NCBI RefSeq assembly: GCF_900111195.1
Contig: NZ_FOGL01000001.1
Coordinates: 62,001-126,000 of the forward strand
Origin: Gracilibacillus ureilyticus
GTDB lineage: Bacteria; Bacillota; Bacilli; Bacillales; Amphibacillaceae
DNA: 64,000 nt
Direction of reading: 5' to 3'
Shown: one piece after another, positions 38,613 to 40,434 of the stretch
Numbering within the stretch: the first letter of the stretch is position 1
Layout: each line of letters opens with the position of its first letter
Notes under the pieces: generated by a model
Told to the model about the DNA's origin: nothing
The model's input: only the letters and a program-made list of their open reading frames with translations
Database searches by the model: none
Position numbers and translations under genes: made by a program

Positions 38613-39650
38613 ATGTTAAGATCAATGTATGCGGGTATATCAGGAATGAAAGGTTTTCAAACAAAATTAGATGTAGTAGGTAATAACATCGCCAATGTAA
38701 ACACAGTAGGTTTCAAAAAAGGCAGAACAACATTCCAGGACATGATGAGTCAGCCAGTGACTGGAGCAAGTGCTCCGACTAATATTCGTGGAGGGATCAA
38801 TCCATCTCAAGTAGGTACAGGTGTTCAACTCGGGACAATAGATAATATTCATACTCAAGGAAATCGACAAACAACTCAAAGACCACTAGATCTACAGTTA
38901 GAAGGAGATGGAATGTTCGTTTTCGGTACGGGTCTTGTCTATAATGAAAATGAACTCACCTATACAGATGGAGATGGTAATGAGTTTGATGCAGACGCAG
39001 CTAGTGGTCTAGACTTTGCTCAGACTAATATTTCATATTCACGTGCGGGTAATATGTATTTAGATGATGAAGGATATATCGTGAATGCAAATGGTCAATA
39101 CTTAATAGGAAAGACAGATGTAATGGCTGGAGCTGCATCAACTACTAATACAGACCCAACTAATTTTCAATCAGATGGTATCGTCGACAATATTTATGGA
39201 AGAATACAAATCCCTGGAGATGCTGAAAGCTTTAGTATTCAAGGAAATGGTAAAGTGACTTATATTTTAAATGGTCAAACTATGGAAGCAGGTCAAATCA
39301 TGCTTGCTAAGTTCTCAAATCCTGGCGGTTTAAACAAAACAGGTTCTAATATGTTTCAGGATTCTGTAAATGCTGGGCAATTGGCGAGAATATCTACTGA
39401 TGTGGACGTAAACGCTGATGGTGAGATTATAATCGACCCTCAAGAGGAGAATGTTGATATGACCTTCCTTTTTGAACCTGAATCCAACGGTACTGCCTCC
39501 ATCGTAGCCGGAGCTCTTGAAATGTCCAATGTCGACTTATCAGAAGAGTTCACTGAAATGATTACAGCACAGCGTGGGTTCCAGGCAAATACTAGAATTA
39601 TTACGACTTCTGATGAAATCTTACAGGAACTCGTTAACTTAAAACGATAA
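38613..39650 (+). CDS. flgE: Flagellar hook protein FlgE
   Basis: FlgE polymerises into the hook. The 345-residue protein starts MLRSMYAGISGMKGFQTKLD, has NNIANVNTVGFKKGR, and ends with the axial helix ITAQRGFQANTRIITTSDEI. It is longer than B. subtilis FlgE (about 264) because of a Gly/Asn/Asp-rich insertion at about residues 105-200, which should lie on the hook surface. The ATG at 38613 follows GAAGGGAAG. An intergenic foldback element follows before swrD. Confidence 0.93.
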   Translation: MLRSMYAGISGMKGFQTKLDVVGNNIANVNTVGFKKGRTTFQDMMSQPVTGASAPTNIRGGINPSQVGTGVQLGTIDNIHTQGNRQTTQRPLDLQLEGDGMFVFGTGLVYNENELTYTDGDGNEFDADAASGLDFAQTNISYSRAGNMYLDDEGYIVNANGQYLIGKTDVMAGAASTTNTDPTNFQSDGIVDNIYGRIQIPGDAESFSIQGNGKVTYILNGQTMEAGQIMLAKFSNPGGLNKTGSNMFQDSVNAGQLARISTDVDVNADGEIIIDPQEENVDMTFLFEPESNGTASIVAGALEMSNVDLSEEFTEMITAQRGFQANTRIITTSDEILQELVNLKR

Positions 39651-39657
39651 AAGGAGG
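39651..39657 (+). promoter_or_regulatory. Displaced Shine-Dalgarno sequence of swrD
   Basis: AAGGAGG follows the flgE stop directly, but no start codon lies in range except a TTG (39664) whose frame stops after four codons. The first real start downstream is swrD at 39807, 149 bases away. The stem of the foldback element begins at the next base, 39658. Confidence 0.6.
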
Positions 39658-39797
39658 AAGAGGTTGAGACATCAATAAGATAGTTAATTCATTATTAGAA
39701 TGATTATCCAGAAGGGAATATAGGCACCAGGCAATAAGGCGAGCTGGGATTCCGCAAGTAAATCATTCGAATAATAAAATGATTGTCTCAACTTCTT
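39658..39797. repeat. Foldback (MITE-like or structured RNA) element between flgE and swrD
   Basis: Three nested inverted pairings are visible. Outer: AAGAGGTTGAGACA (39658-39671) with TGTCTCAACTTCTT (39784-39797), 14 pairs with one G-U. Middle: ATTATTAGAATGATT (39691-39705) with AATCATTCGAATAAT (39761-39775), one mismatch. Inner: GGAAT (39715-39719) with ATTCC (39749-39753), enclosing CCAG/CTGG (39727-39730, 39744-39747). There is no coding capacity. It could be a small mobile repeat or a functional RNA. Confidence 0.7.
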
Positions 39798-39806
39798 TAA
39801 TCTACT

Positions 39807-40028
39807 ATGATCAAATTAACGAAATTAAACCATGAAAAGGTAACTCTGAATGCTATGTATATCGAGAGAATCGAGTCGTTTCCTGATACGACGATTACAT
39901 TAGTCAATCAGAAAAAGTTGTTTGTACAGGAATCGGAAGATGAAGTCAGCAGGTTAGCTACACAATTTTATCAATCTATTGGGTTGATACCACTTCAAGG
40001 AGAATTAGGTGATCAAAATGAATCCTAA
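39807..40028 (+). CDS. swrD: Swarming motility protein SwrD (FlbD family)
   Basis: SwrD (YlzI) raises flagellar motor torque in B. subtilis by supporting stator function. The 73-residue protein has the FlbD core MIKLTKLNHEKVTLNA, then IERIESFPDTTITLVNQKK. The ATG at 39807 is fixed by an in-frame TAA at 39798-39800, yet no ribosome site lies in the 20 bases before it (CAACTTCTTTAATCTACT). The nearest good site is AAGGAGG at 39651, across a foldback element. It overlaps fliL by 11 bases. Confidence 0.93.
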   Translation: MIKLTKLNHEKVTLNAMYIERIESFPDTTITLVNQKKLFVQESEDEVSRLATQFYQSIGLIPLQGELGDQNES

Positions 40029-40434
40029 ATTGTTAAGAGTATTAGTTATTGCATTAGTCGTAATTGTTATCGGCGGTGGAGCTACATTATATTTTTTAAT
40101 AAATTCCCAGGTGAAAGCAGATGAGGAATTGACAATTGATGAAATGGTCAAATATTCTTATACAACAGACGAGATGAAAACAGACTTGTCTGATGGCAGC
40201 TTTGTTCTTATCCAGTTTCAATTTATAACAGATGGTAAAAAAGCTGTTGAGGAAATTGAAAAGCGGGAATTTCAAGTGAAAAACGAATTTATTAAACAGT
40301 CTATTAATCTAACTGAAAATGATTTCCGTGAGAACTTACCACAATTGGAAGAAAATATTATGAATGCGATGAATCAGGAAATGACAGAAGGAAAAATTGT
40401 TGAAGTACTAATTATTAGTAAAGTAATTCAGTAA
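40018..40434 (+). CDS. fliL: Flagellar basal body-associated protein FliL
   Basis: FliL surrounds the stator at the motor. The 138-residue protein has one N-terminal membrane segment (about residues 6-28) and an extracytoplasmic domain ending in LEENIMNAMNQEMTEGKIVEVLI, typical of the family. The ATG at 40018 follows AGGTGAT; a GTG at 40009 is inside the ribosome site. It overlaps swrD, so its translation depends partly on swrD being translated. Confidence 0.94.
   Translation: MNPKLLRVLVIALVVIVIGGGATLYFLINSQVKADEELTIDEMVKYSYTTDEMKTDLSDGSFVLIQFQFITDGKKAVEEIEKREFQVKNEFIKQSINLTENDFRENLPQLEENIMNAMNQEMTEGKIVEVLIISKVIQ

Follow-up and report, generated by a model that had tools for sequence, protein, structure and literature searches.

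The flagellar gene swrD of Gracilibacillus ureilyticus raises the question of how a ribosome finds its start codon. In the window, the stretch of 64,000 nucleotides analysed here, the only strong Shine-Dalgarno (SD) sequence found between flgE and swrD (SD1) lies 149 nt before the swrD ATG on the linear message, a distance that becomes 9 nt with the intervening hairpin excised (Table 1). SwrD has a role in motor torque. Its start is sound because the match of the protein to the Pfam FlbD family (PF06289, E = 1.2e-22, with residues 1-58 aligned to profile positions 1-58) begins at residue 1, and a start further upstream is excluded because of the in-frame TAA at 39798. An earlier note, made from the sequence of the window, had proposed that a folded RNA bridges SD1 and the ATG as in phage T4. 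Its positions for the flgE TAA, the AAGGAGG, the stem, the in-frame TAA and the ATG, and its gap of 149 nt, were borne out by the sequence, as was the lack of an SD in the 20 bases 5′ of the ATG, and the predicted fold contains the outer 14-pair stem that it described. It was slightly too strict in denying the AAGGAGG a usable start of its own: a TTG at 39664, 6 nt past the SD, opens a frame of 4 codons. From the comparison of relatives set out below, we consider it very probable that swrD carries a split ("accommodated") ribosome-binding site of the type of T4 genes 25 and 38, conserved on bacterial chromosomes.

Table 1 Features of the flgE-swrD-fliL region, in positions of the window
Feature	Position	Strand	Basis
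flgE (hook protein, gene 5′ of swrD)	38613..39650	+	Pfam Flg_bbr_C, Flg_bb_rod; ORF list
flgE stop TAA	39648-39650	+	sequence
SD1, AAGGAGG, sole strong SD found between flgE and swrD	39651..39657	+	sequence; anti-SD duplex −11.2 kcal/mol
Bridging hairpin, 140 nt	39658..39797	+	MFE −38.6, z −4.75, 0/200 shuffles as stable
Outer 14-pair stem, 5′ arm	39658..39671	+	predicted fold; sister comparison
Outer 14-pair stem, 3′ arm	39784..39797	+	predicted fold
Enlarged apical part, ~110 nt, absent from nearest sister	39672..39783	+	predicted fold; sister L003
Inner stem of apical part	39691-39705 with 39761-39775	+	predicted fold
Linker from hairpin to start codon, 9 nt	39798..39806	+	sequence
In-frame stop TAA, inside linker	39798-39800	+	sequence
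swrD (FlbD family), ATG start 39807-39809	39807..40028	+	PF06289
fliL-like gene, ATG 40018, 3′ of and overlapping swrD	40018..40434	+	ORF list, sequence

The gene that overlaps the end of swrD had no Pfam match at E 0.001 and owes its name, fliL-like, to the earlier note and to its position; an AGGTGA lies just 5′ of its ATG, and a GTG at 40009 shares its frame.

Folding of the segment 39658-39797 gave −38.6 kcal/mol against a mean of −22.6 ± 3.4 kcal/mol for dinucleotide shuffles, and with its flanks (39645-39815) the z-score was −4.08, none of 200 shuffles being as stable. The earlier expectation that the SD abuts the stem holds in these predictions, but the SD is not wholly free, as part of SD1 is paired in the larger folds: the fold of 39645-39815 has three SD bases paired to the linker 3′ of the stem, and in a 260-nt context most of the GGAGG pairs outside the stem, chiefly with the first part of swrD. 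In the window, SD1 is unpaired with a mean probability of 0.54. Set against ordinary strong SDs, SD1 is equally accessible (median unpaired probability 0.47 vs 0.48, n = 133), and of its mean pairing of 0.51 in the free fold, the end of flgE accounts for 0.20, the linker for 0.19, and swrD and the hairpin for 0.06 each, the counted stems beginning after SD1 by construction.

The swrD gene was present in 39 of the 41 genomes of a first search and in 368 of 397 genomes of the window's order. We examined 177 swrD upstream regions, the window's own included, which came from 54 loci of two genome searches, 97 fetched stretches (one of them dropped) and 27 non-duplicate loci of a class search, from which three duplicates of sampled genomes had been removed. 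The fetched stretches comprised 88 from the order search, among the matches listed (the best of 368), and 9 from the 41-genome search; the sampling passed over some listed places in genera already sampled, and it covers the better-scoring swrD genes. According to a control search, the genome of B. subtilis contains the swrD family. One locus (L121) was left out with a first codon other than ATG, GTG or TTG; in the survey beyond the order described below, 5 of the 30 phylum loci gave no start by pattern and were left out as well. The nearest named relative of the window genome is G. oryzae (81% identity over SwrD). SD sites were identified by their pairing energy with the anti-SD, the stem was the outermost one between the chosen SD and the start, and an SD counted as near when it lay 3-13 nt from the start and paired at −5 kcal/mol or better.

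The layout seen in the window, namely a far strong SD, a hairpin, a short A/U-rich linker (G only 8%) and a start codon with no near SD, was found at 155 of the 177 loci, which span 78 genera and 34 family labels. Of these bridged loci, 147 come from the 153 of the window's order and the remaining 8 from family f49. Those bearing a species name include G. oryzae, G. halophilus, G. dipsosauri, G. massiliensis, G. kekensis and Bacillus testis. The other classes were a near SD with a foldable gap (13 loci), a near SD only (7) and neither (2), although one locus counted as neither (L163) shows a near SD once the search reaches further into flgE. Among the 155, SD and start are 20 to 161 nt apart on the linear message (median 36, quartiles 34 and 38, sd 16.6), while the hairpin-excised distance, by which the choice of SD was partly weighted, lies between 0 and 16 nt (median 9, quartiles 7 and 10, sd 2.7). 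When the count was redone with the strongest SD only, 145 of the 153 own-order loci still fit (excised spacing ≤ 16), the eight misfits having an excised spacing above 16 (four), an SD near the start (three) or no hairpin (one). The stem starts 0-3 nt past the SD in 152/155 loci and SD1 is strong throughout (median −11.2 kcal/mol). Spacer stability relative to shuffles has a median z of −4.0, with none of 100 shuffles as stable in 112 of the 155 spacers and at most 5 of 100 in 143; about a tenth have a z above −2, the weakest being L085, L082, L095 and L149.

Within this range the window hairpin is an extreme version, the usual linear spacing being 34-38 nt. Enlarged loops occur in three families (149 nt in the window, G000; 161 nt in L086; 133 nt in L117), with excised spacings of 9, 13 and 13, and the sister locus L003 has 41 nt in all from SD to ATG. 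Relative to the preceding gene, SD1 begins no more than 10 nt past the flgE stop in 118 of the 155 loci and further off in 37, by up to 148 nt (for example in f25, f28 and f49), with the unit intact. By eye, the gap holds two hairpins in some f25 loci (L050, L067, L088, L115, L128), where a strong hairpin precedes SD1 in addition to the bridging one that follows, and three f28 loci (L068, L102, L135) likewise have two hairpins flanking SD1.

Relatives without the element provide a check that the earlier note had proposed, and it came out in favour of bridging: the six other loci of the own order (L039, L048, L127, L136, L142 and L153) all have a near site of −5 kcal/mol or better. L039, L048, L127 and L136 belong to f25 and are read as cases of loss, whereas L142 and L153 are bridged too. 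Within 464 kb of the 4.07-Mb window genome, a canonical SD precedes at least one start of 413 of the 477 open reading frames, 62 show neither arrangement and two look bridged by our rule: swrD itself and a 302-codon frame at an internal GTG, a case that we consider spurious.

The stem is maintained by paired changes within the genus of the window. In 15 Gracilibacillus sequences (window excluded), 92.8% of cells are paired, compared with 37-62% in slid registers, and 9 of 12 pairs have changed on both sides; on four of five covariation measures none of 500 shuffles reached the observed value, and on the fifth 3 of 500 did. When the window is set beside its nearest sister, 4 of the 13 comparable outer pairs differ on both sides, and pairing is intact at each of the 13 in either sequence. 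A second set, of seven close relatives from a different genus, in f46, showed no excess of covariation (204/500 shuffles). Together, the likeness of 155 of 177 genomes and the covariation in Gracilibacillus lend strong support to the central proposal of the earlier note, a folded RNA that bridges SD and AUG as in T4. Stem sequences and loops vary between genera, in part as judged by eye, and among stems of 78 genera, one locus each and paired by construction, every base-pair type is used. Selection seems to act on the abutment of the stem on SD1 and on the length of the linker, and not on stem sequence or loop size, and the apical enlargement of ~110 nt in the window would be tolerated because loop size seems not to be under selection. 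Near the foot of the stem, the 78 genera tend to place purines, mostly G, in the 5′ arm and pyrimidines in the opposite one. Such a strand bias would prevent SD-like letters from lying close to the start codon.

Outside the window's order the arrangement is mostly a different one. Of 69 such loci, the SD is near in 50 and far in 12 (eight in f49, one each in f65, f77 and f55, and one phylum locus), and 7 lack one by the cut-off. A foldable gap precedes the SD in 43 of the 50 near-SD loci, and 34 of these 43 have a z of −2 or lower (median −3.2). The flgE-swrD hairpin of other Bacillota resembles that of the window in its operon place and in its often strong stem, but the SD is mostly 3′ of the hairpin, beside the start, and no bridging is needed. 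A hairpin 5′ of a canonical SD is present at L062, L063, L164, L165, L167, L174, L175, L179, L212, L214 and L215, and the same arrangement at swrD is seen in L217, L218, L228, L229, L235, L237, L239, L245, L247 and L251. The hairpin also occurs in Clostridia-like genomes, where bridging is impossible. Since distant groups carry the hairpin 5′ of a canonical SD, it seems to be older than bridging and may have, or may have had, another role, for which protection or processing of the flgE message would be a guess. The SD can thus stand on either side of the hairpin, and where it stands on the far side, bridging gives a usable distance. We infer that the bridging hairpin derives from an older intercistronic hairpin, the SD having changed sides.

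As to how such a site would work, on the simplest account the 30S subunit would pair with SD1 directly past the flgE stop, while the hairpin remains folded and projects from the ribosome. The single-stranded ends would then meet and leave the start codon ~9 nt from the SD, which is a normal spacing, and the start would reach the P site. We infer that ribosomes initiate through this bridged site. The earlier note went further and supposed that swrD translation would depend on the RNA being folded. Taken as a regulatory gate, the bridge would be a folding-dependent ON switch conserved across many Bacilli, a reading that we regard as doubtful. Under a gate, the hairpin may be opened or masked by a helicase, an RNase, an RNA-binding protein, a passing flgE ribosome, temperature or salt, and fliL, which overlaps swrD, may be affected too, as the earlier note suggested. 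We know of no binder of the swrD hairpin.

Several other explanations of the same arrangement have to be weighed. Ribosomes terminating on flgE could stay on SD1 and move to the swrD start across the hairpin, or by melting it, with the hairpin serving some other purpose. The closeness of SD1 to the flgE stop in 118 of the 155 loci fits this reading, as a terminating ribosome would cover SD1, but in the other 37 the unit lies further off, and f25 and f28 have, by eye, another hairpin before it. Nor does such reinitiation need a stem 0-3 nt past the SD or a steady excised spacing, and we hold it to be improbable. The hairpin could instead protect the 3′ end of the flgE mRNA, or be a processing site or a partial terminator, with initiation of swrD needing no SD and taking place at an unstructured site rich in A and U. 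Its presence in other orders and in Clostridia-like genomes and the scarcity of G in the linker speak for this explanation, which nevertheless leaves unexplained why a strong SD stands at the foot of the hairpin and none near the start. A U-tract is also lacking: a T-run of 4 occurs within 8 nt after the stem in only 5 of the 155 loci and no longer run in any, and the bases after the stem of the window are TAATCTAC; an intrinsic terminator was rejected. We rate this account as highly improbable.

SD1 could also drive a short leader frame coupled to swrD, for which the TTG at 39664 in the window and 7-codon frames in L039 and L077 might be cited. In L039 the frame opens with an ATG ~9 nt past the SD, its end overlapping the swrD start, and in L077 it ends at the swrD start, its ATG being only 3 nt past the GGAGG; translational coupling, a subject treated in PMC12548453, is possible at these two loci in place of bridging. 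They look like exceptions because L039 is unbridged and L077 has a stem of only 4 pairs. Start codons 3-13 nt past SD1 are found at 43 of the 155 loci, at chance level (42.5 ± 5.2 expected), and only 6 of them are in frame with swrD, so that a coupled leader has a very slim chance of being the general explanation. Hairpins in 5′ regions often hide an SD or a start codon, and an ordinary regulatory hairpin of this kind (thermometer, riboswitch or repressor target) might be considered, the stem ending 0 or 1 nt before the start in 4/155 loci. The low pairing of SD1 with the hairpin, in stems that by construction begin after SD1, speaks against such sequestration, as do stem sequences and loops that differ between genera and the lack of any Rfam match at gathering score in the 64-kb window; a search at E 10 gave nothing credible there, the best sub-threshold match being a miRNA model, MIR6135 (E = 0.071). 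We give this reading almost no probability.

Bridging of an over-long distance has its precedents in phage T4. According to a review (PMC3014915), a hairpin shortens the distance from SD to AUG from 22 to 5 nt in gene 38 and from 27 to 11 nt in gene 25, the latter at an intercistronic junction and conserved among close T-even phages; reporter assays were carried out for both genes, and DMS probing for gene 25 (Malys and Nivinskas, cited in PMC3014915). The likeness lies in an SD that is too distant and is brought to working distance by the intervening hairpin, and swrD shows three features of this type: a far SD without a nearer one, a hairpin that restores the spacing and a structure kept in relatives. 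It differs from the T4 cases in being chromosomal, in concerning one gene in 155 of 177 genomes, in spacings of up to 161 nt and in being known from sequence comparison. In E. coli thrS, as reported in PMC3936740, a hairpin interrupts the binding region of the ribosome and is accommodated without unfolding. The swrD hairpin is placed differently from that of thrS, as it lies between SD and start, 3′ of SD1. In thrS the hairpin precedes the SD, and ThrRS binds it in an autoregulatory manner. Our literature search, in which subscription papers were mostly uncovered and absence is thus unproven, returned nothing that joins swrD, a hairpin and an SD, nor anything on the swrD start. Compared with T4, what appears to be new is an accommodated ribosome site that is chromosomal, deeply conserved and furnished with much larger inserts, with bridging well supported by the comparison.

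If this reading is right, swrD would have a deeply conserved chromosomal ribosome site assembled by RNA folding, and its natural variants of 20-161 nt would be a ready test series for the tolerance of the ribosome to folded RNA in the interval from SD to start. The gene would be misjudged by gene finders and expression models if these require an SD within ~15 nt. For flagellar biology, the hairpin would represent a concrete post-transcriptional element before a torque gene in a flagellar operon. Were the gate to prove true as well, motor torque would depend, via swrD, on the folding of the hairpin, and the element would also tell which size of folded insert the 30S subunit accepts between SD and start (here 140 nt).

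Some minor observations concern the enlarged loops and the start codons. A mobile element in the loop was considered and set aside. The loop insert of the window has one match in its own genome, and the only other match across 17 genomes of the genus is one of 22 bases, 39758-39779, which recur exactly at another site in the sister genome G013 (L263). The enlarged loop of L086 holds an AAAGGAG followed by an ATG, a frame that may be due to chance. The swrD start is TTG in 18 and GTG in 7 of the 155 bridged loci, and ATG in all 22 others.
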